Shown: piece by piece, positions 2,231 to 31,274 of the stretch
Layout: every line of letters starts with the position of its first letter
Position numbering within the stretch: the first letter of the stretch is position 1
Source: Gemmatimonadaceae bacterium
GTDB taxonomy: Bacteria; Gemmatimonadota; Gemmatimonadetes; Gemmatimonadales; Gemmatimonadaceae
Assembly: GCA_022843265.1 (NCBI GenBank)
Contig: JALHNZ010000002.1
Location: 62,001-126,000 of the forward strand
DNA: 64,000 bases
Direction: 5' to 3'
The notes under the pieces: generated by a model
What the model was told of the DNA's origin: nothing
What the model saw: only the letters and a program-made list of their open reading frames with translations
Databases searched by the model: none
Program-made: the position numbers and the translations under genes

Positions 2231-4719
2231 ACATTCGCTCGCATTTCTCACGAGTTGCCATTATTCCGTCGTGCGCGTTTCTGCTCGGCGCGTGTCAGGC
2301 CGACGCGCAGGATCGCTCGTCCATTCTCGCGCTCGCCAACGAAGGCAAGCTGGAGCAGGCCGAGTCGGCGGCGCGCGCCGCCGGACCAACGCTCGCCACC
2401 ACGCTCGGCGACATTCTCGTGATGCGTGGCCAGCTGCGCGCCGCTGATTCAGTCTACGCGAGCGCCGGCGAAGCGCCGCTGGCTCGCGTGGCCGAAGTGG
2501 GTCGCGCAGAGTTGAGCGCGCGTCGCGGCGATATTGCTGATGCACTGGCACGTGCGGAACGCATCGCAGCGGCGTATGAACGTGGTGGGGCCCAGTGGGC
2601 ACCGGAAGAACGTGTGGCCGCAGGCCGCGCATACGTGCTGCTCGGCCTGCGTGATTCGCGCACCGCGCGTCAGGCGCTGGCGGCGTTTGATGCCGCGTGG
2701 GCAGCCGATCCTTCATTGTTCGACGCGCGAGTTCGCGCTGGCGAGTTGTTGCTCGACAAGTACAATGCGCCTGACGCAAAGTCGTCGTTCGCCGACGTCC
2801 TGAATGTTGAGCCCGCGTATCCACGCGCACTGCTTGGTATGGCGCGTGTGCAGGAGTTCGAAGGCGAAGCCGCCGCCATGGAAACGGTTCGCAAGAGCTT
2901 GGCGTCGAACCCGTCGCTAACCGCCGCGCACACCATGCTGGCGCGGTTGCATCTGGAAGCGGAAGCGTACGATTCCGCATCTATCGCCGCCGATCGTGCG
3001 CTCGCAATTGATTCCACGGCCATGGAGGCGTGGGCGCTTCGCGGAGCGGTGGCGTGGTTTGCGGGGAATCCCACCGCGCTTCTTGCCGCGCAGAAGCGCG
3101 CGGAGGCACTGAATCCGCGTCCTGCTGGCTTCTTCGCAACGCTCGCGGAAACAGCAGTACGGCACCGCCGATACGCCGACGGCGTGCGGTGGGCTGAGCA
3201 GGCCGTGGCGCTTGATTCAAACTCGGTACGTGCGCTCGGAGTGCTTGGCACCAATCAGTTGCGCACCGGCGCGATGGAACGAGGCCGCGCCACGCTCGAG
3301 CGTGCGTTCGCGATTGATCCGTTCAACCTGTGGCACAAGAACACGCTGGATTTGCTCGATGAGATGAAGAAGTTCACCGTCATCGAACGCGAGCGCTTCC
3401 AGCTGGTGGTGTCGCCGGAAGATGCGGCGCTGATGGAGTTGTATCTGCTGCCCATGCTCGAACAGGCCTACGATACGCTTGCGAAGCGCTATGCGTGGAA
3501 GCCCGATCGACCCGTTCGGTTCGAGATTTTCCGGCGTCACGCGGATTTCTCGGTGCGTTCCGTTGGACTCACAGGGCTCGGCGCACTTGGCGTGAGTTTT
3601 GGCGATGTGTTGGCGATGGATGCACCGTCCGCGCGCGAACCGGGGTCATTTAACTGGGGCTCAACCGCCTGGCATGAACTGGCGCACACGTTCACGCTCG
3701 GCTCGAGCAACAACCAGGTGCCGCGCTGGTTGTCCGAAGGGCTGTCTGTACTTGAAGAGCGTCGTGCACGCGACGGGTGGGGCGCCAAAGCTTCTGTAGA
3801 GTTTCTGGCGGCGTACAAGGCGAATATGCTGCGGCCCGTGAGTTCACTGAACGATGGGTTTGTAAGACCGCGATATCCCGCCGAGGTACAGTTCAGCTAC
3901 TATCTCGCGTCGCTGGTGTGCGAGATGATTGAGCAGGAGTTTGGTGCGGCGGTATTGCCGGCCATGATGAAAGCGTATCGCGAGGGGCTGGAATCGCCTG
4001 AAGTGTTTGCACGCACGCTCAAGGTGTCTGGCGACTCACTCGACAATCGCTTTCGCGCGTTCATGACCAAGCGGTTTGCGAAACCGCTCGCCGCGGTGGT
4101 GCCTGGTGATGGCCCCGGCATGGTGAATGGCGAGTTTGTGGATGCCATGCGCGAGGGGGTGGGCCATCTCGACGCACAGCGTACGCGCGAGGCGCAGCGT
4201 GCATTCGAGAAGGCGCAGGCGCTCTGGCCCGATTTGCACTCCGCTACTGGACCCGATTGGTACCTCGCGCGCCTCGCGCTTGAGCGTGCGGACACGACGG
4301 CGGCCTTGACGCTGTTAGGCAACATTACGCGCGCGCAGGAAACCGCGATGGCGGCGAACGTGCTCGAAGCAGATCTGCTTGAAGCCCGCGGCAATGATGC
4401 AGCGCTGGTGAAGACGCTGGAGCGTATTATCTGGATGGCACCGTACAGCGCGAGTTTGCACGAACGGCTGGCCGGCGCCGCAACACGCACCGGTTTGCAT
4501 GCCGTTGCGGTGCGCGAGCGTCGCGCGGCCCTCGCGATTGGAGCGTCTGATCCGCTCGAAGCACGATACCAGCTGGCCGATGCGTTGCGACGCGCCGGAG
4601 ACATTCCTGCGGCGCGACGTGAAGTGATCGGCATGCTGGAGACAGCGCCAGGGTTTGAAAAGGCACAAGCGTTGTTGCTACAGCTGCGCTCAACCACACC
4701 GCCCGGAGGCGCGCGATGA
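2227..4719 (+). CDS. TPR-repeat lipoprotein with M61/MA-type metallopeptidase domain
   Basis: A GTG start at 2227 overlaps the TGA of the previous gene. The N-terminus has a lipoprotein-like signal ending FLLGAC, so it is probably membrane-anchored outside the cytoplasm. Residues about 30-380 and 640-820 are helical TPR-like repeats rich in Ala/Leu/Arg. Between them lies a gluzincin domain with HELAHTF (His483, Glu484, His487) and the downstream WLSEGLSVLEE (Glu504), the arrangement expected for zinc ligands and catalytic Glu in MA-superfamily peptidases. The active-site set is intact, so it is predicted catalytically competent. At 830 aa it is a plausible effector peptidase for the operon, with TPRs to recruit partners; substrate unknown. 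It overlaps the next gene by 4 bp. Confidence 0.83.
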   Translation: MNIRSHFSRVAIIPSCAFLLGACQADAQDRSSILALANEGKLEQAESAARAAGPTLATTLGDILVMRGQLRAADSVYASAGEAPLARVAEVGRAELSARRGDIADALARAERIAAAYERGGAQWAPEERVAAGRAYVLLGLRDSRTARQALAAFDAAWAADPSLFDARVRAGELLLDKYNAPDAKSSFADVLNVEPAYPRALLGMARVQEFEGEAAAMETVRKSLASNPSLTAAHTMLARLHLEAEAYDSASIAADRALAIDSTAMEAWALRGAVAWFAGNPTALLAAQKRAEALNPRPAGFFATLAETAVRHRRYADGVRWAEQAVALDSNSVRALGVLGTNQLRTGAMERGRATLERAFAIDPFNLWHKNTLDLLDEMKKFTVIERERFQLVVSPEDAALMELYLLPMLEQAYDTLAKRYAWKPDRPVRFEIFRRHADFSVRSVGLTGLGALGVSFGDVLAMDAPSAREPGSFNWGSTAWHELAHTFTLGSSNNQVPRWLSEGLSVLEERRARDGWGAKASVEFLAAYKANMLRPVSSLNDGFVRPRYPAEVQFSYYLASLVCEMIEQEFGAAVLPAMMKAYREGLESPEVFARTLKVSGDSLDNRFRAFMTKRFAKPLAAVVPGDGPGMVNGEFVDAMREGVGHLDAQRTREAQRAFEKAQALWPDLHSATGPDWYLARLALERADTTAALTLLGNITRAQETAMAANVLEADLLEARGNDAALVKTLERIIWMAPYSASLHERLAGAATRTGLHAVAVRERRAALAIGASDPLEARYQLADALRRAGDIPAARREVIGMLETAPGFEKAQALLLQLRSTTPPGGAR

Positions 4720-5477
4720 CTCGCGGAAAGACGCTCGCGGTCACGTGTGCGTTGTTGTTGGGCGCCACGGCGCTGGCGTTTGGGCAAGGAGGCCGCGAGC
4801 GTCGCGGGATCGAAGATTTTCCCAATGCCGAGTATGACGGGCGATTCGTGTTTGCCCGCATCAGCTACAGCCAACAAGACTTTTCTTTTCGTCGTGGCGG
4901 TGGATCTGCATGGGCACACGACTATCCGCGAGCCGAACGCAACTTTCTCAAAATTCTCGGCGAGTTATCAACCGTACGAGTGCGCGGCGACGCCAGCACG
5001 ATTCTCTCGCTCGACAATCCAGAGCTCTTTCGTTTTCCCGTGATCTATATGGCGGAGCCGGGCTTCTGGCTTCCCAATCCGGCTGAGGTGCTCGCACTGC
5101 GCGCGTATCTGCAGAAGGGTGGATTCATGATATTTGACGATTTCGCGGGACGCGATTGGTTCAACTTTGTGGCGCAAGTAGAAAAAGTATTGCCCGGCGC
5201 CGTTCCCGTTCGACTCGACACGTCGCATCCGGTATTCGATTCGTTTTACCGCATTACCTCGCTCGACTATTACCACCCGCTACAGCAGGTGCCGTCCGAG
5301 TTTTACGGCGTGTTCGAGAACAACGATCCATCACAACGCATGCTGATGATGGTGAACTTCAACAACGACATCGCCGAGTACTGGGAGTTCTCCGACGAGG
5401 GGTACTTCCCGATTGACTTGTCGAACGAAGCTTACAAGCTCGGCATCAACTACATCGTGTACGCTCTCAGCCGCTGA
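4716..5477 (+). CDS. DUF4159 domain-containing secreted protein
   Basis: The ATG at 4716 overlaps the preceding stop by 4 bp. Residues 1-23 are a signal peptide (LAVTCALLLGATALAFGQ). The rest matches the DUF4159 style: FVFARISYSQQDF near the N-terminus, YPRAERNFLKIL, then an amidotransferase-like core (VIYMAEPGFWLPNPAEVLALRAYL, GGFMIFDDFAGRDW) and a C-terminus with MVNFNNDIAEYWEFSDEGYFPI. The family has no established reaction; it is repeatedly found next to MoxR, DUF58 and BatA genes and is presumed periplasmic or membrane-associated. A 15-nt gap separates it from the MoxR gene. Confidence 0.85.
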   Translation: MTRGKTLAVTCALLLGATALAFGQGGRERRGIEDFPNAEYDGRFVFARISYSQQDFSFRRGGGSAWAHDYPRAERNFLKILGELSTVRVRGDASTILSLDNPELFRFPVIYMAEPGFWLPNPAEVLALRAYLQKGGFMIFDDFAGRDWFNFVAQVEKVLPGAVPVRLDTSHPVFDSFYRITSLDYYHPLQQVPSEFYGVFENNDPSQRMLMMVNFNNDIAEYWEFSDEGYFPIDLSNEAYKLGINYIVYALSR

Positions 5478-12400: not shown

Positions 12401-13256
12401 GCGGGCGCGGGATCTGGTGCGTGGGCTGGAATCATTGCGCGACCGGTTGGCAGAGCAGCAAGGGCGGCAGGGACCGCAGGACACCTCGCGTAACGCGGCG
12501 CGCGGCCAGCAGGGCCAGCAGGGCCAGCAGGGCCAGCAGGGCCAGCAGGGTCAGCAGGGTCAGCAGGGTCAGCAGGGCCAGCAGGGTCAACAGGGCCAGC
12601 AAGGTCAACAGGGTCAACAGGGCCAGCAGGGTCAACAGGGTCAACAGGGTCAACAGGGTCAACAGGGCCAGCAAGGCCAACAAGGCCAGCAAGGACAACA
12701 GGGCCAGGGCCAGCAGGGTCAACAAGGCCAGCAGGGCCAACAGGGCCAACAGGGCCAACAGGGCCAACAGGGCCAACAGGGCCAACAGGGCCAACAGGGC
12801 CAACAGGGCGGCGAAGGACGCGGCGATGCGGGCACGCGCGGCGGACGCGATGGCGCAATCGGTGGCGCACCGAATGGCCCGCGAACCGACGGACGTCCGA
12901 GCGGCGACGCGTCACAGGCGCGTGGAGAGTTCCGCTTGCGTCGTCAGGCGGCAGAAGAGCTGCGTCGCGAACTTGCCGGACAAGGACTCGATGTGCGCGA
13001 ACTGGATCGTGCGATCTCGGATCTGCGTCAGCTTGAAAGCGGACGTGCATTGAACGGCGACCCCAAGGGGCTCGCCGAGTTGCAGGCCAATGTGATTGAA
13101 GGCCTCAAGACGTTTGAGTTCGCGCTGTTCCGCAGCTACGGCCTGGGTGCGGACAATCGACCGGCGCTCGGTGCGCGCGCTCCGGTGCCGCCGGAATATC
13201 GCGCGTTGGTTGAGGAGTATTATCGCTCACTCGCCGATCCGAAACGTCGTCCGTAA
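9495..13256 (+). CDS. Giant DUF4175-type membrane protein with coiled coils and (GQQ)n tract
   Basis: The ATG at 9495 overlaps the previous stop (ATGA), giving 1253 aa; an upstream in-frame ATG at 9441 would lie inside the previous gene. Hydrophobic spans occur near residues 23-47, 55-75 and 150-170, after which a beta-rich extracytoplasmic region (about 190-510) resembles Ig-like repeats. From about 510 on, poly-Gly runs alternate with long Gln/Glu/Arg/Ala coiled coils ([19 protein letters not shown]). Residues 1004-1104 are a near-pure Gly-Gln-Gln repeat, then a conserved helical C-terminus ([25 protein letters not shown]). The architecture resembles DUF4175 proteins found beside MoxR/BatA genes, here unusually long. 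It is the last gene before a strong terminator. Function unknown; perhaps a periplasm-spanning scaffold. Confidence 0.85.
11039..11078 (+). repeat. Poly-glycine coding tract
   Basis: A GGN-rich run encodes about a dozen consecutive glycines between the beta-rich and coiled-coil parts of the DUF4175-type protein. Shorter Gly runs recur near 11464-11492 and 11706-11722. They probably act as flexible hinges and are prone to slippage. Confidence 0.8.
12504..12806 (+). repeat. 9-bp tandem repeat encoding (Gly-Gln-Gln)n
   Basis: The block is 303 nt: thirty-three 9-nt units of the type GGYCARCAR plus one 6-nt Gly-Gln unit, all in frame. Synonymous variants occur in runs (GGCCAGCAG first, then GGTCAGCAG/GGTCAACAG, then GGCCAACAG at the end), which indicates growth by local unit duplication. 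The encoded segment has no Pro, so it is not collagen, but it keeps a strict Gly-X-Y period. Confidence 0.97.
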
Positions 13257-13279
13257 ATACGGAGCGAACCACAAACGAG

Positions 13280-13322
13280 AACCGCGGCGTGTGCTTATGT
13301 GGCACACGCCGCGGTTTTGTTT
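13280..13322 (+). terminator. Strong intrinsic terminator, probably bidirectional
   Basis: Perfect 15-bp arms AACCGCGGCGTGTGC (13280-13294) and GCACACGCCGCGGTT (13302-13316) flank a 7-nt loop, followed by TTGTTT on the plus strand. It lies 23 nt after the stop of the DUF4175-type gene and just past the stop of the convergent M24 gene, so it can serve both. Confidence 0.85.
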
Positions 13323-14658
13323 AGCGCTTGATCAGTATCAGTTCCTGCTGTGGCGGCACCAGATACTCCGCACCGCGTTCGGTGATCACTGCCATCTCTT
13401 CCACAGAAATGGTCTTGCTGCCTTCGCCCCACTTGCCGGTGCCACCGGGCAGCGTCCACGCAAAAAACCCGTCGAATGCAAAGACGTGTCCCACTTCGAG
13501 TGGACGCTTGTTGAAGCGATTGAGCGATGGACCTACATCGTGCGCCCAATAACCCACCGAGTGCCCTGTGCCCCACGGCACACTCGCTGACCCTTCGCGG
13601 TTCATGATCACACGTTGCGCTGAATCCACTTCGCTGCCAGTGACACCCGGGCGCATCATGGCAAATGCCGCTTCACCACCACGTCGCGCAGCAAGCCATT
13701 TGCGCTGCACATCAGGCGGTGGCACTGATTCTCCGGGACGCAGCGCATAGGCAAAACGCTGGATGTCCGTACCCCAGACGCCGAACACCTTGATACCGAA
13801 GTCGATCTGAATGACGTCGCCGTATTCGATCACACGATTCGACGCGTGTGAGTGACCACGGTCCGGGCCAGAGTTCACACTTGGGTTCTGCGCCGGCGAC
13901 CAGCCGTCTTCGACGGCCAATTCACGCATGCGTTTTTTCAAAAACTGCGCGAGATCGCTGTCGCGGGTCTTGCCTGGCACGACCGTGGCATACGCTTCGT
14001 GCTCGAGTTGCTCCGTGAGCGACGCGGCTTTTCGCATGATGTCGATCTCGGCGGGCAGCTTGCGGTCGAGCCAATAGCTTACAAGTTCGGCCGACGACAC
14101 GAGTCGCGCACTCATTTCTGGTCCAATCGCCCGTTCGAGCGCGATGCGCTGCGATGCGGAGAGCCCGTCGGCCATGGCCAGATTGCCGCTATTGATTGCG
14201 ATGCGCGCGGGATTGGCCGTCTTCAATCGCGCCGCCACTTCACCAAGCGGGCCGCCGGATTCCGCGGTGTATGCTACGACCGAATCATGTACGGCAAGTT
14301 CACGCAACGCGATCACTTCACCGAAGCCGGCGAAGATGTATGACTGCACCGATGTGCCGCGTCTGAGAAAGAGAATGGAGGAGGGCGCGCCGGTATTTTC
14401 ACCGCCCACGTGCAGGGCCAGCGGATCATTCGCATTTTCGCGTACCATGACAATCCACGCATCCACGTTGGCCTTCTGCATCGCCACAGGCAGCAGGGTG
14501 CGCAGTCGTTCCTGTCGGATGGTGTGCCACGGGGACGGGCCCGCAAACTCTGCGGTGGCCGCCGGCTGCGCGAGGAGTGGGAGCGCAACGAATGGTATTG
14601 CGGCCAGCGCTGAACACAGCGTGGCCGCACGAGCGATTGGCGTGAACGAGAATGTCAT
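13321..14658 (-). CDS. Secreted M24 family metallopeptidase (Xaa-Pro aminopeptidase-like)
   Basis: 445 aa with an N-terminal signal peptide (CSALAAIPFVALPLLAQ). The N-terminal half is a creatinase-like domain; the C-terminal half is the M24 pita-bread fold. Metal ligands can be placed at Asp286 (VIQIDFGI), Asp298 (WGTDIQRF), His366 (GTGHSVGYWAHDVGP) and Glu420 (ISVEEMAVIT). The remaining ligand position, usually Glu in an IEPG-type motif, reads FAFDGFF, with Asp396 in its place. This may be a subfamily trait rather than inactivation. It likely cleaves X-Pro peptides outside the cytoplasm. Convergent with the first operon; a hairpin separates them. Confidence 0.88.
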   Translation of the reverse strand: MTFSFTPIARAATLCSALAAIPFVALPLLAQPAATAEFAGPSPWHTIRQERLRTLLPVAMQKANVDAWIVMVRENANDPLALHVGGENTGAPSSILFLRRGTSVQSYIFAGFGEVIALRELAVHDSVVAYTAESGGPLGEVAARLKTANPARIAINSGNLAMADGLSASQRIALERAIGPEMSARLVSSAELVSYWLDRKLPAEIDIMRKAASLTEQLEHEAYATVVPGKTRDSDLAQFLKKRMRELAVEDGWSPAQNPSVNSGPDRGHSHASNRVIEYGDVIQIDFGIKVFGVWGTDIQRFAYALRPGESVPPPDVQRKWLAARRGGEAAFAMMRPGVTGSEVDSAQRVIMNREGSASVPWGTGHSVGYWAHDVGPSLNRFNKRPLEVGHVFAFDGFFAWTLPGGTGKWGEGSKTISVEEMAVITERGAEYLVPPQQELILIKR

Positions 14659-14740
14659 GAACGCCTGGCAGAGGTGCGGAATCGAGAGAAACGCGTTTGC
14701 CCTGACGCTACGTTCGCACCCGAAAGGGCTCGCAGGCGCG

Positions 14741-15619
14741 TCAGCGCTGACGCAGGGTACGCCCCACGATGATACTCACATTGTCCGTTCCGCCGCCATC
14801 CAGCGCGTCCTGCAGCAACTGTTCGCACACCTGCTGCGCCGAGGTCATTGAGGCCAGCCGATCTCGGATCTGATCATCGGTCACGTGCTTGGTCAGTCCG
14901 TCGCTGCAAAGCAGGTGCACGGTGTGCCAGTCGTTGGGCAAGCGTGTGACCACGGGCAAGGCGTGCTGTCCGCCGATCGCGCTGGAGAGCACGTGCGAAT
15001 AGCGGGATTTTTCGGCCATGGCGCGCGTGAACACGCCTTCGTCCACGAGATCCTGCGCCATGGTCTGATCACGCGTCACCTGTTGCAACCGACCCTCGCG
15101 ATACGAGTAGTACCGTGAATCGCCAACCTGCAGCAGGTAATACCATGGCCACACACCCATAAACATGGTCAGCGTCGTGGCCATGGTGCGCCCGTGCCCT
15201 TCCTGTTTCGCGCGATCGAGCACCGCCTCATGACATTTAAGCGCGGCGTCCTGCAACACGTGAATAAACTCTTCGTCGTTGCTCGACGCGCGGTAGTAAC
15301 ACTCGGTGCTCATCGTGAAGTATTGCGTCGCCACTTCGAGTGCGGTGGCGGACGCACGTTCGCCTCCTTCGCCACCGCCCACACCGTCAGCGATCATGGC
15401 CAGAAACGCCAGGCGCTCATCAGCCAATGGCAAGCGCTGTTGCTCATTCAGGCTGGTTTGCAGCACGTGAACCCGTTTGCTGATCGACGCGAGCAGGAAA
15501 TGATCCTGATTTTCCTTACGCACCGAACCGGTGTGCGTGAGCCCGAACACATCAATCTGGTCATCACGCGGTTTTGTGTCACCGGAAGATGATGCCTCGA
15601 CCGCGAGGGAATCCGACAT
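14741..15619 (-). CDS. PP2C-family protein serine/threonine phosphatase
   Basis: The start is set at ATG 15619, which has GGAGG 11 nt upstream; an in-frame ATG at 15661 would add 14 residues without a better site. PP2C motifs appear in order: VFGLTHTGSVRKENQDHF (motif 1), IADGVGGGEGGERAS (motif 2, metal-binding Asp and Gly), LLCSDGLTKHV (motif 8) and GGGTDNVSIIV (motif 11). No membrane span is seen, so it is a soluble cytoplasmic phosphatase, 292 aa. It probably reverses Ser/Thr kinase signalling; no kinase gene is adjacent. Confidence 0.93.
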   Translation of the reverse strand: MSDSLAVEASSSGDTKPRDDQIDVFGLTHTGSVRKENQDHFLLASISKRVHVLQTSLNEQQRLPLADERLAFLAMIADGVGGGEGGERASATALEVATQYFTMSTECYYRASSNDEEFIHVLQDAALKCHEAVLDRAKQEGHGRTMATTLTMFMGVWPWYYLLQVGDSRYYSYREGRLQQVTRDQTMAQDLVDEGVFTRAMAEKSRYSHVLSSAIGGQHALPVVTRLPNDWHTVHLLCSDGLTKHVTDDQIRDRLASMTSAQQVCEQLLQDALDGGGTDNVSIIVGRTLRQR

Positions 15620-18446: not shown

Positions 18447-20731
18447 GTGCGCTCCTGCGGAACCATGGTCGGCTTCAGCGGCAACGATCGCAGCCGCTCA
18501 CCAGTGAGTGCGAAAAGCGCGTTCGCAATGGCGGGCGCGACAGGCGGAAGACCCACCTCACCCACGCCTCCCGGCGACTCGCTACTCGGTACGATGTGCG
18601 TTTCCACGATCGGCGTTTCGTGCAGCCGCAGCAGCCGGTAGCCGTCAAAGTTTTGTTGCTGCACGCGTCCGTTCACGATGGTAATCTCACCAAACAGTGC
18701 GGCACTGAGTCCATGCACCACCGCGCTCTGCATTTGCTGCGCCACACCTTCCGGGTGTATGGCCACTCCGCAGTCAATCGCGCAGGTGACACGATGCACG
18801 CGCACCTCACGCTCTGAACCGAGCGACACCTCTGCCACCATCGCTGCGATGGAACCGAAGGAACGATGCAGCGCAATGCCGCGTGCAACGGGCGCACCGT
18901 CACTGGAGACCAACGCTTGCCCGCTCCAACCGGCTCGCTCGGCAGCAAGCGTCAACACTCGATGCGCCCGCGGATGATCACGCAGCAGGCCGAGACGAAA
19001 CGCGACCGGATCCGTGCCGGCAGCATGTGCCAACTCATCGACAAAACTCTCAATGAAGAATGCCTGATGCGAATGTCCGACTGCTCGCCAGTATCCAACT
19101 GGCACCGGCAACTCAACATCATGATGCGTCACCTGCAGTGCAGGAAACGCATACGGCTGATCGAACATGCCCTCGACGGCCGACTTGTTGATATCAAACC
19201 GCGCCAGCCAGACTCCGTTGCGCGCGCCGTACGACTGCACGATGGATTGATTGGCGCTCGTCGCGCGCAACGCCGTGACCTTGCCCGCGCTGTTCAATCC
19301 GCCGTGCATCACTGACGCCGTGGCCGGTCGATAGAAATCGTGTTGCACATCATCTTCACGACTCCAGATCACTTGCACAGGCGTATCTGGCAGCGCTCTC
19401 GCGATTTCTGCCGCTTGCACAATGAAATCGATGTCGAGCCGACGTCCGAACCCACCACCAAGCAACTGCACATGCATGTGCACGGCATCGTCGCTCAGCC
19501 CGAGCAGCGAGGCGACAGCGGACCGCGCCTGTGTAGGCACCTGTGTGCCCACCCACACATCTGCCCGATCTGCCTTCACACGCACTGTGCAGTTGGGAGG
19601 CTCCAGTGTTGTATGCGTCAGGTACGGCACGGTGTACGTGGCCGTCACGCGTGTCGCGGCGCTCTGGAGCGCATCGTCTACGTTGCCTACGCGACGAAAG
19701 GTTCGACCGCCCGCTTCGGCGGCGCGTGACCGCAGCGTGGACAATACGTCTTCGCTTGAGAGCATGTGATTCGGGCCATCTTCCCACTGCACCGCCAGCG
19801 CGGCCAACGCCTTGCGCGCGCGTGGCCAGCGATCGGCAATCACCGCCACACCGCGCGCACTACCGCTCACACCCGAAAGTGGCACCACCGCACGAACGCC
19901 GGGTGATTGCTTCGCGGCGACTTCATCATAGCTGCGCACACTGCCGCCGAGCACTGGAGACATCGTGACGGCGGCAAACACAAGTCCCTCGGGTCGCACA
20001 TCAATGCCAAACACCGCCGATCCGTTGCTCTTGCTGGCGGCATCGAGGCGCACGCGTGCGCTACCGATCACCCGATAGGCACTGGGCTCTTTTCGGGCCC
20101 AGCGTGTGGCGGGAGTGAGCGACGCGCCGCTCGCGATCAGTGCGCCGTAGGACATCGCATTCGAACCCGAGCGAATCACTCCGTCTTCGACCTCACATGA
20201 CTGCGAACTCACAGACCACGTGCGTGCGGCCGCATCAACCAGCGTCGCCCGTGCCAGCGCCCCCGCATCGCGCACCGGATCCCACAAATCGCGAATGCTC
20301 GTCGAGCCACCCGTGATCATCAATCCGGCCGCGCGCAAGAACTTGTCGCTATACCACTGCATGGTGCGCACGAGCACGCCGTTGTTGTCGGGCGGAAATG
20401 GCAGTGCGTCACGACCCACCGTGAGATTCGCGTAAATCGCGTCGACCGGACTGTGTTCGGTGCGAACCGTGGACCAGTCGCAGTCGAGCTCCTCCGCGAG
20501 CATCATGGCGACGGCCGTATGCACACCCTGCCCCATCTCGGCTTTCGGCACAATCACCGTGACCGTTTGATCGGGAGCGATGGTGAGCCAGCCGTTGAGT
20601 GCCACGCGCCCGCCGTCGCCTGGGAGAGGCGCGCCGCCATGCATCCGTTGTCGAGGCGGCATCAGGCTCCAACCCAGCATGAGAGCCCCGCCTGCGCCCA
20701 CACCGGCCAGTAGAAACGCGCGGCGTTTCAC
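18443..20731 (-). CDS. Molybdenum hydroxylase large subunit (isoquinoline 1-oxidoreductase beta type)
   Basis: The frame extends upstream to 20848, but GTG 20731 starts a twin-arginine-like signal (KRRAFLLAGVGAGGALMLGW), so the enzyme is probably exported and a start at 20731 is preferred; this choice is uncertain. Moco-binding landmarks are present: PKAEMGQGVHTAVAMMLAEE, VWVGTQVPTQAR, LGGGFGRRLD and the C-terminal GVGEVGLPPVAPAIANALF with the catalytic Glu. The family hydroxylates N-heterocycles or oxidises aldehydes with water-derived oxygen; the substrate is unknown. It lies upstream of, and overlaps by 4 bp with, the 2Fe-2S subunit gene. A MOSC protein is encoded nearby on the other strand. 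Confidence 0.93.
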   Translation of the reverse strand: MKRRAFLLAGVGAGGALMLGWSLMPPRQRMHGGAPLPGDGGRVALNGWLTIAPDQTVTVIVPKAEMGQGVHTAVAMMLAEELDCDWSTVRTEHSPVDAIYANLTVGRDALPFPPDNNGVLVRTMQWYSDKFLRAAGLMITGGSTSIRDLWDPVRDAGALARATLVDAAARTWSVSSQSCEVEDGVIRSGSNAMSYGALIASGASLTPATRWARKEPSAYRVIGSARVRLDAASKSNGSAVFGIDVRPEGLVFAAVTMSPVLGGSVRSYDEVAAKQSPGVRAVVPLSGVSGSARGVAVIADRWPRARKALAALAVQWEDGPNHMLSSEDVLSTLRSRAAEAGGRTFRRVGNVDDALQSAATRVTATYTVPYLTHTTLEPPNCTVRVKADRADVWVGTQVPTQARSAVASLLGLSDDAVHMHVQLLGGGFGRRLDIDFIVQAAEIARALPDTPVQVIWSREDDVQHDFYRPATASVMHGGLNSAGKVTALRATSANQSIVQSYGARNGVWLARFDINKSAVEGMFDQPYAFPALQVTHHDVELPVPVGYWRAVGHSHQAFFIESFVDELAHAAGTDPVAFRLGLLRDHPRAHRVLTLAAERAGWSGQALVSSDGAPVARGIALHRSFGSIAAMVAEVSLGSEREVRVHRVTCAIDCGVAIHPEGVAQQMQSAVVHGLSAALFGEITIVNGRVQQQNFDGYRLLRLHETPIVETHIVPSSESPGGVGEVGLPPVAPAIANALFALTGERLRSLPLKPTMVPQERT

Positions 20732-20865
20732 CGGTTGGAGGACTGATAGAAAGCGAACATCTCTGAATATCGATAGCGTGCGGTCCGTTGCACAGCGCGA
20801 GCACTCGACACGATCCGTGCGCATATTCACGGAGGTCCAATACCGCACCTCCTACCACCCGACTC

Positions 20866-26848: not shown

Positions 26849-29599
26849 TCAACGACGTGCGCGCGCCATGAACGGCGCCGCAGCAATCGTTCCGCACGGC
26901 ATTGACGCACTGCGGATTGCAAAACCACCGGTCTGATTGTCATCGGCCCAAAACGCGGGCTTGAGTCCGTTCACGCACTCGGCCTGCGTACCAAACGCAA
27001 AACCTTCGTTGTTGAAGTTGCCGAGTGATGCCGGGCGCGCAAATCGACGCGGGGCCTGAAAACGTCCGCGGGTTGGCGAACCTGTCGCCACGTCGATCTC
27101 GAGCACACCCATGGTGGTGCCGCATCCGTCATCACAGATGGCCCACAGGTACTTGGTGGTGGGATCATACTCAAGTCCCATCACGCCCGGATAACCAGTG
27201 GTGATCGTGGCCACGCGCGTGAAACTGCTGTTGGCGTGATTCAATGCAAACGCGTAGATGACGCCGTTCGCTTCGAGCCCGACGAAGAAAATACCGGTGC
27301 CATGATCGGCGTAGTCAGCCGGGTTATACGCACGATTCTTTGATTCATCGAAGAACGCACGGTTCACCAACACGCTGTCGGGAATCCATGTGATTGCCTC
27401 AGCGCCGAGGTTGGCGCCGACTACGGGCAGATCGCTGGTCAGATTCCACTCATGCGTTGGCGTGAGCGACGTACCAGGCTGCGACACATCATAACGAAGC
27501 ACACTGTTGCGACTGACGCCGCTCACGGCGTTGTTGCGCTCTGCGGATATGTACATGCCACCGGCAGACCCACCTGCTGCGAATGTCACACCTTCGGCGT
27601 CAACATCACCCGTGCCGTCGAGATAGCGCAGCAGTTTACCAGTTGCCCAGTTGTTGGCTGGGTCAGGCGTCCAGAGACCACCGCTGAAGATCAAGCGGTA
27701 CAGGCTGCCGGGACCATTCTTTGACGCCCACAGCACAGACGGATTGCCACCGGTGGCGCTTTCGAAGGTAAGGCCACTCATGTTCGTTCCGAACACGTTG
27801 GCACCAACCACCGCCTGCGTGTTGTCGCTTCCCGGCCATGGCGCACTCGGCGCGACAACGGGCGTGCAGATGTTCGCCGCACCTTTCGTCGAGACCGTAG
27901 TGCTGGCGAATGCGCCAAAACCATCCGGGCAGCGACCATACGTAATGGCGGCGTGGACCGTCCATTCATACGAGTCCACGAGTGCACCGTTGGCGTCGAA
28001 CAAGCGGGCCGCATCAGCGCCACCGAGTCCGAAACCGAGTGCCGTTTCTTCGATCACGTAAAACGCGCCCGGCGCGAGCGTTGTACCTGCCGGAATGCGT
28101 GTGGTGCGTGTGTCGTCGTTGTCCTTGACCAGATAGTTCGAGATATCAACCGGACTACCACCGGCATTGTACAACTCGATCCAATCGCCCGGCGTGCCGC
28201 CGTTTGATTCCACTTCATTCACCTTTACGGAACCAACGCAGTTATTTGCGGCGCCCTTGGTCGATGTGGTGGACGTGGAGAAGCCGCCCGTACCATCCGG
28301 ACACCGTGCGTATGTGGTCGTTGCATGCGACGTCCACGCGTACTCATCGATCAGTACGCCGGTCGCGTCAAAGATTCGCGCAGCGTCGGCCGAGCCCAAT
28401 CCGAAACCCAACGTCGTTTCTTCGATCACAAAGAACGCGCCGGGCGCAATCATAGAACCGGCGGGCAGTCGTGTAGTCCGAGCGTCATCGTTGTCCTTCA
28501 CGATGAAGCCGGAGAGATCCACCGTGGTCGTGCCTACGTTATAGAGCTCGATCCAATCACCCGGCGTGCCACCGTTCGACTCCACTTCGTTCACTTTAAT
28601 CTGCGGTCGGCAGTCATTCGCTGCGCCCTTGGTCACGCTCGACATCGTGACGAACGGGCCGCTGCCGTTGGGGCAACGGCCGTAGGTGGTGCTGGCATGC
28701 GCGGTCCATCCGTACGAATCAACGCGCGCACCAAACTGGTTGGACAACCGTACGGAATCGGCGGCGCCAAGTCCGTAGTTGAACGTGGCTTCTTCAACCA
28801 CAAGATGTGCGCCCGCGGCAATCGTGGTGCCAGTTGCAAAGCGGAAGGTGCGCGAGTCGTCGTTGTCCTTGAGCGCCCACCCGGACAGATCAACCGTTGT
28901 GTTCGTGGCGTTGAATAACTCGACCCAGTCGCCGGGCGTACCGCCGCTTGATTCGACTTCGTTAATGCGAATGCCCGGCGGTGCATTCACCGTAACGGTG
29001 AGTGTGCCCGTTCGGCCGCCGGCGGCGGCAGTGAGCTGCGTGGTGCCGGGCGCTACCGCTGTGACCACGCCCGCAGTGGAGACCGTGGCCACGGTCGTTG
29101 TGGCTGACGTCCACGTAACAGTACCCGTCGGAAACGCCGCTCCAAACTGATCACGACCGGTGGCCGTGGCCAGCGACGATTCACCGAGCGCGAGGCTCGC
29201 ACTGGGCAGAGCGACCACGATTGTGGTCAGCGCTGGCGGTGGCGGCGTCACGGTGAGCGCCTGCGTTCCCGAAATGCTTCCGGATGTCGCGGTGATCTGT
29301 GTGGTACCAGCGGCCACCGCGGTAATCACACCGAACTCGTTGATCGTGGCCACCGTGCTGGCAGAGGACGACCACACAATCTTGCCCGTTGCCGTCGCCG
29401 ATCCGTCACTGGCACGTCCCTGTGCAGAGGCTGAGGTGCTACGCCCGGCCTGCACCGATGTGGACGCCAGCGCAACGTCAATGGCCGAGAGGCCGGCGGG
29501 CGCCGTGGAGGTGTCAGCGCACGCCGCGACGCCCAGCGCCACCAGAAGCATGAACAGAGTACGGCGCGTGGTGGCGGCGTAACGAGTTGTCGGGATCAC
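26849..29599 (-). CDS. Large lipoprotein with two BIG2 domains, three lamin-tail domains and a propeller-like C-terminus
   Basis: GTG 29599 starts a lipoprotein signal (TTRRTLFMLLVALGVAAC); the frame extends to 29689 without a better start. In order: two bacterial Ig-like (BIG2) domains (SASTVATINEFGVITAVAAG and TTTVATVSTAGVVTAVAPG); three lamin-tail domains of 124 residues each, starting at KVNEVESNGGTPGDW-type segments; and about 300 residues resembling a beta-propeller or phytase/esterase-like region (GMYISAERNN, GVMGLEYDPTTKYLWAICDD, NFNNEGFAFG). It is exported and anchored outside the cell. Lamin-tail domains are found in secreted bacterial nucleases and adhesion proteins. About 916 aa. 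Confidence 0.85.
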   Translation of the reverse strand: MIPTTRYAATTRRTLFMLLVALGVAACADTSTAPAGLSAIDVALASTSVQAGRSTSASAQGRASDGSATATGKIVWSSSASTVATINEFGVITAVAAGTTQITATSGSISGTQALTVTPPPPALTTIVVALPSASLALGESSLATATGRDQFGAAFPTGTVTWTSATTTVATVSTAGVVTAVAPGTTQLTAAAGGRTGTLTVTVNAPPGIRINEVESSGGTPGDWVELFNATNTTVDLSGWALKDNDDSRTFRFATGTTIAAGAHLVVEEATFNYGLGAADSVRLSNQFGARVDSYGWTAHASTTYGRCPNGSGPFVTMSSVTKGAANDCRPQIKVNEVESNGGTPGDWIELYNVGTTTVDLSGFIVKDNDDARTTRLPAGSMIAPGAFFVIEETTLGFGLGSADAARIFDATGVLIDEYAWTSHATTTYARCPDGTGGFSTSTTSTKGAANNCVGSVKVNEVESNGGTPGDWIELYNAGGSPVDISNYLVKDNDDTRTTRIPAGTTLAPGAFYVIEETALGFGLGGADAARLFDANGALVDSYEWTVHAAITYGRCPDGFGAFASTTVSTKGAANICTPVVAPSAPWPGSDNTQAVVGANVFGTNMSGLTFESATGGNPSVLWASKNGPGSLYRLIFSGGLWTPDPANNWATGKLLRYLDGTGDVDAEGVTFAAGGSAGGMYISAERNNAVSGVSRNSVLRYDVSQPGTSLTPTHEWNLTSDLPVVGANLGAEAITWIPDSVLVNRAFFDESKNRAYNPADYADHGTGIFFVGLEANGVIYAFALNHANSSFTRVATITTGYPGVMGLEYDPTTKYLWAICDDGCGTTMGVLEIDVATGSPTRGRFQAPRRFARPASLGNFNNEGFAFGTQAECVNGLKPAFWADDNQTGGFAIRSASMPCGTIAAAPFMARARR
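27857..28972 (-). repeat. Three tandem 372-bp lamin-tail repeats
   Basis: Unit 1 spans 28972-28601, unit 2 28600-28229 and unit 3 28228-27857. Each is 124 codons with the pattern NEVES.GGTPGDW.ELYN, KDNDD.RT, VIEET..G.GLG.AD and STKGAAN.C. The exact period and the stronger similarity of units 2 and 3 indicate successive duplication. Confidence 0.9.
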
Positions 29600-29816: not shown

Positions 29817-30608
29817 TCAAAGCGAACGACACTGCTCTTCTTTCTCGCCGGCGGTATTCGATCCGCCAGTCGGCGCCGGCGAATTTTCTTTGCACTGGAG
29901 CGACTGTGCAATCCGGTTTGATGTGAGACGTACACCACCAATGTTCTTGAAGACCTGGAAGTCGCTGCCGACGTCGTTGCCATTGGCGACGAGCGCGCCG
30001 CGATTTTCTTCCAGCTGCAGGTTGCCACGCACGAAGCTGTTGGAAATCTCTACTGCGTTGCCCTGCTTCACCTGCAGATCGCCATGCACGCGAATGCCCG
30101 TTGCAACGAGCGACACGCCAGACTCTTCGAGCTGCAGGTTGCCGTCGATGATGGCATTCTCCACGCGAACGGAGGCGCGACGCTTGACCTGTACATCACC
30201 GTCAACGAACGCACCGTTTCGCACCGACACGCTCAGTGCGTCTTCGGCCTGAATGTTTCCGTCAACACGCGCGGCGTCGACAATGAGCGTGGCACCAGAG
30301 GCGACTTTCACATCCCCCCGCACTCGCGTGCCATTGAGCGTGCACGAGGCGCCGTTCGGTACCGACACTTGTTCCACCGAGATGGCTCCCAACGTGCCGT
30401 TGCAGCGTGAGGCCGAGGTGCCGTTGCTGCCTGTGGGTCCGGTGTTTCCGCTGGTGGTGCCGCTTCCGCCACGCGAGTTGGTGGCCGCGAAACCGGCGTC
30501 GGGTTCCGAGGGCGTATCCGAACCGCACGCTGCTGCGGACATGACCAGGAACGACGCACAGACGTTGCGAACAACAGTAGCAGAACGGCGGAATGTCTTG
30601 GCCAACAT
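29817..30608 (-). CDS. Lipoprotein with repeated beta-helix-type motif
   Basis: ATG 30608 starts FRRSATVVRNVCASFLVMSAAAC, a lipoprotein signal (the frame runs to 30650). A low-complexity Gly/Ser/Thr linker follows, then eight turns of about 22 residues with the theme V.G[DN][VIL]Q[VL][KE] (RGDVKV, DGNIQA, DGDVQV, DGNLQL, HGDLQV, RGNLQL, GSDFQV, AQSLQC). This regular strand spacing predicts a right-handed beta-solenoid, somewhat like a bactofilin or pectate-lyase-type core. The last turns include a Cys that may pair with an early Cys (NGASCTLNG). No enzymatic signature is seen; a structural or adhesive role is plausible. Confidence 0.7.
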   Translation of the reverse strand: MLAKTFRRSATVVRNVCASFLVMSAAACGSDTPSEPDAGFAATNSRGGSGTTSGNTGPTGSNGTSASRCNGTLGAISVEQVSVPNGASCTLNGTRVRGDVKVASGATLIVDAARVDGNIQAEDALSVSVRNGAFVDGDVQVKRRASVRVENAIIDGNLQLEESGVSLVATGIRVHGDLQVKQGNAVEISNSFVRGNLQLEENRGALVANGNDVGSDFQVFKNIGGVRLTSNRIAQSLQCKENSPAPTGGSNTAGEKEEQCRSL

Positions 30609-30725
30609 GAGACGGGTACTCCGTGCGTGGAAGGATGCGTCAGTCGCCACTAACGTCGCACCGCCTCGCCAACGCCCGCCGTGGCCCGCATCACCAGCTA
30701 GTTGGTAACACGGATCACAGTGCCC

Positions 30726-31274
30726 TCAGGCAGTAGTCTGCACCGAGTGTGGGACCACGTCGCCACTGAACATCACACCCCCAATCGTGACATAGAGCGT
30801 GCCGTCCGTGACCGTCACATCGATCTTCATGCGACGATCCAATTGCTCGACCAACGCCGCAATAAGGTCGCGATCGATCGCGAAGAGTGTGATCTGCTCG
30901 GCACGATGAATGCGCTCGCCCACGTAGCCACGCAACACGATGAGCGGATCGCGATGTGTATAGATCGCAACACGCGCCGCCGCCTTGCTTGCCTTGTGCA
31001 ACCGCGCGGCATCTGGTGCACCAATCTCGATCCACGCTTGCAAGGCGCCCGTGAGATCACGTACGGCAATCGTAGGGTCTTCCGGATCGGACACGCCGCG
31101 TGAGAACGTGATGCCATCTGTGTATTCAAGACAGTAGGCGAGCACGCGAGCCACGAAGTACTCAGGTGACTCAGACGGGTGCATGGGCACCCGTAGCGCC
31201 AGCGTTTCGTACACATGCCGGTCCACGTGCGACAGCGCGATATCGAGCGTGTACAATGTTGAGGTGAGCGCCAC
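30726..31274 (-). CDS. yaeQ: YaeQ family protein
   Basis: 182 aa, matching YaeQ closely in length and motifs: ALTSTLYTLDIALSHVDRHVYE at the start, SPEYFVARVLAYCLEYTDGITFSRGVSDPEDPTI in the middle and LYVTIGGV near the end. YaeQ has a PD-(D/E)XK nuclease-like fold; its function is not settled. It starts 3 nt after the flavoprotein stop, so the two are co-transcribed. Confidence 0.94.
   Translation of the reverse strand: MALTSTLYTLDIALSHVDRHVYETLALRVPMHPSESPEYFVARVLAYCLEYTDGITFSRGVSDPEDPTIAVRDLTGALQAWIEIGAPDAARLHKASKAAARVAIYTHRDPLIVLRGYVGERIHRAEQITLFAIDRDLIAALVEQLDRRMKIDVTVTDGTLYVTIGGVMFSGDVVPHSVQTTA

Follow-up and report, generated by a model that had tools for sequence, protein, structure and literature searches.

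What kind of protein is encoded by the repeat-bearing gene on the minus strand at 29817–30608 of the window, the 64,000-nucleotide stretch of a Gemmatimonadaceae contig (JALHNZ010000002.1) analysed here, and why do charges alternate in sign along its repeats? We favour, at roughly even odds, a stand-alone, non-enzymatic lipoprotein rod of the cell envelope, whose charged edge would form salt bridges between turns. The protein pairs a known fold with a family that Pfam and NCBIfam do not name and with one conserved surface feature. The fold is already well known, and this limits the surprise.

Gene architecture and predicted fold

The gene fills 29817–30608 of the minus strand exactly, with 263 codons and a stop, an ATG at 30608 and no internal stop in its open frame. 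Two genomes of the same genus carry in-frame relatives with 54–56% identity. GGAG is a ribosome-binding motif, and a copy ten bases 5′ of the ATG (30619–30622, minus strand) may act as one, as read from the sequence. A search for a sigma-70-type promoter pattern found none, and one terminator-like match falls within the gene on the opposite strand, where 1.2 are expected.

Residues 1–27 form a probable lipoprotein signal peptide, which ends in SAAA followed by Cys28 (30525–30608, minus strand). Lipoprotein signals have a positive N terminus, a hydrophobic stretch and small residues ahead of a cysteine, and position −3 is usually Leu. All of these elements can be picked out by eye in the window protein, the residue at −3 being Ala instead of the usual Leu. 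The five eight-turn relatives all have a cysteine at this place, and in all six eight-turn proteins it closes the N-terminal hydrophobic stretch, again by eye. This agrees with the first-pass annotation, which had predicted a lipoprotein; the protein is probably anchored by lipid on Cys28. A Gly/Ser/Thr-rich linker follows (residues 29–68; 30405–30524, minus strand), recognized by its composition and low pLDDT. These three residue types account for 24 of the 40 residues counted from Cys28 onward.

The solenoid domain comprises residues 69–263 (195 residues), with eight turns (29883–30323, minus strand) held between two Cys-containing caps. The N-terminal cap (residues 69–95; 30324–30404, minus strand) contains Cys69 and Cys89. 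The C-terminal cap (residues 239–263; 29820–29894, minus strand) overlaps the end of turn 8 and contains Cys239 and Cys260. The signal region contains two of the protein's six cysteines (17 and 28), another two (69 and 89) precede turn 1, and the last two (239 and 260) lie at the end. Both N-cap cysteines are invariant in sequence set A2 (7 rows); in A4 (13 rows) Cys89 is invariant and Cys69 is kept in at least 90%. Cys239, Asn242, Asn251 and Cys260 are likewise invariant in A4.

The motif turns begin at residues 96, 115, 135, 154, 174, 193, 213 and 233. A loose motif recovers all eight of the copies that had been claimed; with the same motif, shuffling the core 20,000 times gave two copies twice and never more. 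The spacing is 19, 20, 19, 20, 19, 20 and 20 residues, shorter than the roughly 22 residues first estimated. The pattern V.G[DN].Q[VL][KE], said to recur along the chain, does so as regular motif copies, although its literal form is present in three turns only. We set the register of the turns by hand, position 1 being the V or I of V-x-G.

Structure prediction had been suggested as the check on a beta-solenoid, and it gave a confident, regular beta-helix. AlphaFold2 was supplied with the window protein together with four sequences from a Chloroflexi metagenome-assembled genome (MAG; L002), a Woeseiaceae MAG (L003, with two domains in one protein) and Nocardioides malaquae (L004). The full-length model has a mean pLDDT of 80.7, with residues 1–63 below 50 and 179 of the 263 residues at 90 or above; the domain alone reaches 96.2, with a pTM of 0.90. 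Most motif turns contain two short strands in these models. At E≤0.001 Foldseek matched neither model to a PDB entry, and the fold assignment therefore rests on the AlphaFold2 models and on Z-scores from VIA-align 2, which we applied to the chains ranked highest by Foldseek. The top superposition is with the Vag8 passenger (7akv_G; Z 19.1, 188 aligned residues, 2.1 Å, 16% identity), and others include a phage tailspike (Z 18.4, 191 residues, 2.1 Å) and pertactin (Z 18.1, 188 residues, 2.2 Å). The matched entries, glycan-active proteins among them, we take to be right-handed parallel beta-helices. The stacked turns of the models and their superposition on solved members place the domain, as predicted, in this fold class.

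The fold is one that the window protein has in common with autotransporter passengers (Vag8, 7akv; pertactin, 2iou; Hap, 3syj; IgA1 protease, 3h09; PF24078). In contrast to these, it is only 263 residues long, has neither a translocator barrel nor a protease, is a probable lipoprotein and carries Cys pairs in both caps. We rejected a type Va autotransporter, as the chain stops at residue 263, three past the last cap cysteine; no outer-membrane barrel model in Pfam matched the protein.

After the first few rows the VIA-align matches are mostly glycan-active beta-helices (Z about 15–18, and about 15 at rank 50). That so many of the closest folds are enzymes of this sort counts against our non-enzymatic reading and would suit a lyase, hydrolase or epimerase built on the beta-helix. 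We nevertheless consider a glycan-active enzyme very unlikely. A common fold shows no function, and turns of 19–20 residues each provide no long loops to wall a groove. The seven invariant residues of A4 are one Leu, three Asn and three Cys, and the nearly invariant ones are Cys, Val, three Gly, Asn and Pro. None of the invariant residues is acidic, basic or His, and nothing resembles the Asp/Glu/His/Arg set of an enzyme.

The VIA-align rows also include a beta-helical antifreeze protein (3p4g, Z 15.2), and an ice role has been proposed for a beta-solenoid lipoprotein of an Antarctic Flavobacterium. That proposal relies on TXT motifs along a flat face (PMC13413566). T-x-T occurs nowhere in the window protein, however, and its regular ladders consist of Gln and charged residues. 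An ice-binding lipoprotein is on these grounds scarcely credible, and we rejected this identity for want of a T-x-T ladder.

Alternating charges at position 9

The first-pass annotation had also described Lys and Glu alternating from turn to turn. The alternation is real, but it is better placed one residue later, at position 9 and not position 8. Position 8 reads A-E-K-E-K-E-F-K over turns 1–8 and alternates in turns 2–6 only; among the five eight-turn relatives (L005, L006, L012, L013 and L046), just L005 and L012 keep it. Position 9 reads S-D-R-E-Q-E-K-E. The resulting ladder, seen by comparing the turns in register, consists of Asp123, Arg143, Glu162, Gln182, Glu201, Lys221 and Glu241 in turns 2–8 (29886–30242, minus strand), and all five relatives have x-D-R-E-K-E-K-E. 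One of them, L046, was discovered after the ladder had been noted; it belongs to the same genus as L013.

Across turns 2–8 of five eight-turn proteins (P0001, L005, L006, L012 and L013), position 9 has a mean pairwise identity of 0.94, the highest of the 16 turn positions. For comparison, Gly at position 3 scores 0.90, Gln at position 6 scores 0.80 and position 8 scores 0.74. We then permuted the residues with positions 1, 3, 5 and 7 fixed and counted alternation at any position. The best alternation in the window protein, six of seven turns, was equalled or bettered in 27 of 20,000 shuffles. Each of the five relatives alternates in seven of seven, a score reached in 0–3 of 20,000 shuffles each; these six proteins are homologous, and hence the shuffles are not six independent tests. 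Alternation at position 9 is a conserved feature of what is probably the surface, its side chains presumably pointing outward. Its conservation above all other positions suggests that the signs of the charges are kept for a reason.

An alternation of period two could also be inherited. If the solenoid expanded through duplication of a two-turn unit of 39 residues, the charges would alternate without a role of their own. Several observations are in keeping with such a relic: the spacing of the turns alternates between 19 and 20, turns resemble those of their own parity more closely (mean identity 0.315 versus 0.249), and the true parity split ranks 4 of 70 for turns 1–8 (each split being counted twice) and 2 of 20 for turns 2–7. 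Units 3–4 and 5–6 of the window protein share 49% of their residues, but the same units share only 23–28% in L006, L013 and L046, and no DNA repeat remains. Moreover, position 9 is the best kept of all turn positions among proteins that have 50–62% of the domain in common with the window protein, and drift alone would not give that. We therefore regard an inherited alternation with no role as unlikely, while two-turn duplication may account for part of the pattern.

The salt-bridge rod that we favour takes the computed fold, caps, repeat register and conserved alternation as its frame. The protein would be exported, lipidated at Cys28 and left hanging on its flexible Gly/Ser/Thr tether, and the eight motif turns of residues 69–263 would stack as a short, right-handed parallel beta-helix. 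A Cys pair, presumably as a disulfide, would close each end, so that the caps stop fraying. In most turns Gln would occupy position 6 and a charged residue position 9, with both side chains presumed to face outward. As the sign at position 9 alternates turn by turn, neighbouring turns could pair Asp or Glu with Arg or Lys, a pairing drawn from the hand-set register. Salt bridges between turns along one edge would keep the register in place and create a fixed strip of charge. The rod would then be a display or adhesive surface, or a spacer in the envelope; its ligand, and an adhesive as against a structural role, are guesses on our part.

Two observations bear on this reading from outside the eight-turn proteins. 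Relatives with five or six turns live without the alternation, which argues against it: among those compared, none alternates across more than three turns. An analogy is offered by the HET-s prion-forming domain, whose stacked turns place opposite charges at equivalent positions (PMC4055769), much as the window protein appears to do. HET-s differs in being a fungal amyloid of two-turn monomers; the likeness is one of analogy only, and we neither found nor claim a sequence relation.

The strip might instead act between molecules. Rods on the same or neighbouring cells could dock edge to edge through their alternating charges, after the manner of Antigen 43, a surface beta-helix rod that serves as the model for such docking. 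An alternating strip should be complementary to itself at a shift of one turn, and Foldseek lists Antigen 43b (7kob) with an E of 0.22 and a probability of 0.23. Self-association of Antigen 43 variants runs through helix edges, and the interfaces described are mostly hydrogen bonds, Ag43a having two salt bridges as well (PMC8993888). Antigen 43 proteins are, however, autotransporters with a long L-shaped rod. The rod of the window protein is short, a patch of seven charges may be too weak, and salt bridges paired within one rod would compete with docking. We hold homotypic adhesion of this general kind to be distinctly unlikely. More speculative still is a specific form of it, in which the D-R-E-K-E-K-E strip is a one-sided electrostatic zipper by which rods on one cell or on adjacent cells dock laterally, one turn out of step. 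The protein would then be a minimal eight-turn homotypic lipoprotein adhesin, selected as such in a single clade, with turn number free to vary across the wider family of capped solenoids.

Family identity and distribution of relatives

No family could be named for the protein at first pass, and none can be from the libraries searched: it falls under every Pfam and NCBIfam cut-off, and neither library clearly places it in a known but unrelated family. Its sole Pfam-A match is PF24078, the second beta-solenoid of PIC/HAP1/IgA0, over residues 73–124; at 24.7 bits it is below the gathering score of 27, and we rejected it. NCBIfam returned no match. Taken one by one, the 13 members of A4 give scattered matches to other repeat families, with all the solenoid-domain scores inspected under cut-off. 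Those to DUF5649 (19.4 bits against 25) and YdcK (14.2 against 350) are weak, occur in relatives only and were also rejected. A phage family, PHROG 7964 (function not assigned), matches residues 92–210 with 19.1 bits and an E value of 1e-3. None of 50,697 phage records matched the solenoid protein, and 203 pattern matches in viral contigs included none that encodes a relative. In the largely open-access literature searched, we recognized no description of the family.

Two named families invite closer comparison. Bactofilins (PF04519), which polymerize into filaments, are right-handed beta-helices of short Gly-containing turns, a build that the window protein has in common with them; it differs in its signal peptide and Cys caps. 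This identity was rejected, the window protein having no match at E up to 1 (cut-off 27.9 bits), although 2 of the 13 A4 members match weakly (best E 6e-4). The one true bactofilin of the window genome (L050; G000, contig C13) scores 76.2 bits and lies on another contig. Profile comparison finds it unrelated to A4 (probability 15 over 26 columns). The Toastrack domain DUF4097 (PF13349) is, like the window protein, repetitive and rich in beta structure. It was rejected in the same way: its profile does not match the window sequence up to an E of 1, and 3 of the 13 A4 members match weakly (L002, 17.0 bits against a cut-off of 22.9).

Around the window protein, a family of small capped beta-helices can be delineated in several bacterial phyla. 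The protein has the N-cap Cys pair, the turns of about 19–20 residues, the Gly at position 3 and the C-cap L-x-C...N...N...C that characterize capped solenoids; since A2 and A4 were built around the window protein, its membership is a description and not an independent test. L006 is in A2 and was excluded from A4, L007 (31% identity) was excluded from both, and L046 and L047 were found after A4 had been built and are absent from it. The cap Cys pairs are conserved across phyla, while turn number ranges from five to eight. Six turns are found in L002, in each domain of L003, in L024 and in L011, and five in L004. Being compact, confidently predicted and variable in turn number, these proteins are suited to testing whether alternating charges stabilize natural solenoids. 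Should the strip bind something, the domain would be a very small adhesin scaffold.

A search of related genomes with the repeat profile, another check suggested at the outset, does find relatives, in a patchy pattern. Counting the window genome itself, the profile matches 8 of 298 genomes in its phylum (7 accepted), 8 of 179 in its family and 4 of its 60 nearest relatives. One candidate, L015 (G221), was set aside as a DUF4097-like repeat protein by eye, with one stop within the match. Even its own genus shows the gene to be accessory: two of the four other genomes there lack a match, one of these being only 64% complete. With the centre genome included in each count, matches were obtained in 2 of 185 genomes in the class of L003, in 1 of 398 in its phylum under a stricter limit, and in 9 of 201, mostly loose, in the phylum of L002. 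Nonomuraea gerenzanensis has a 74% match.

The relatives differ in how their ends are built. By eye, L002, L003, L004 and L024 have ordinary signal peptides with Ala-rich ends and no cysteine in the signal region. The C termini of L003 and L024 have a hydrophobic stretch and an Arg-rich tail, presumably akin to C-terminal sorting signals; NCBIfam flagged no sorting signal in either, and L002 matches the YLP-box sorting motif with 12.3 bits against a cut-off of 15. At locus L038 the domain (L011) lies at the end of a 554-residue frame that also has a probable lipoprotein signal; at locus L039 (G118; 2595–5228, minus strand) another (L014) does so in a frame of 878 residues that includes a Peptidase_M64 domain (113 bits). 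Its position at the C terminus of larger exported proteins indicates a portable domain of exported proteins, and in L039 it is possibly the attachment or display module of a secreted peptidase. The L039 protein also contains Ig-like regions.

Looser relatives occur in the phylum of L002, where L025–L033 include several with 'GHD' turns; A4 took only L025 and L027 from these. L026, L027 and L033 combine turns reading 'VGHD' or 'IGGD' with a similar end that contains cysteine, which suggests a wider superfamily of capped solenoids. In a 177-residue frame, L049 (G720), the signal region, roughly three turns and the EQC-R-A-L at the end remain, with the N-cap cysteines and most of the turns gone. 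This frame is a decayed or shortened copy.

Genomic neighbourhood

We compared 21 kb around the gene with L034–L040 from the same phylum, L041 from outside it, and L002–L004, and found no neighbour gene conserved across these loci that would hint at a role. The only non-solenoid match to a frame of the window is between part of an open frame at 20000–20851, about 9 kb from the solenoid gene, and a frame in L035 (G002, 12965–15442), about 4 kb from its own (61.9% identity over 244 residues). The other loci matched one another four times: between neighbouring frames of L036 and L037, of L036 and L040 and of L037 and L004, and between frames antisense to the solenoid in L002 and L004.

The product of the next gene on the same strand (26852–29554, minus) is large and probably a lipoprotein. 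It combines three lamin tail domains (LTD, 178 bits) with a pair of Big_2 domains and a region resembling phytase that scores below threshold; the gene has no match in the relatives' neighbourhoods compared. Just upstream of the solenoid gene lies a YaeQ family gene (30729–31274, minus strand; 183 bits), whose stop is separated from the solenoid start by 117 bases.
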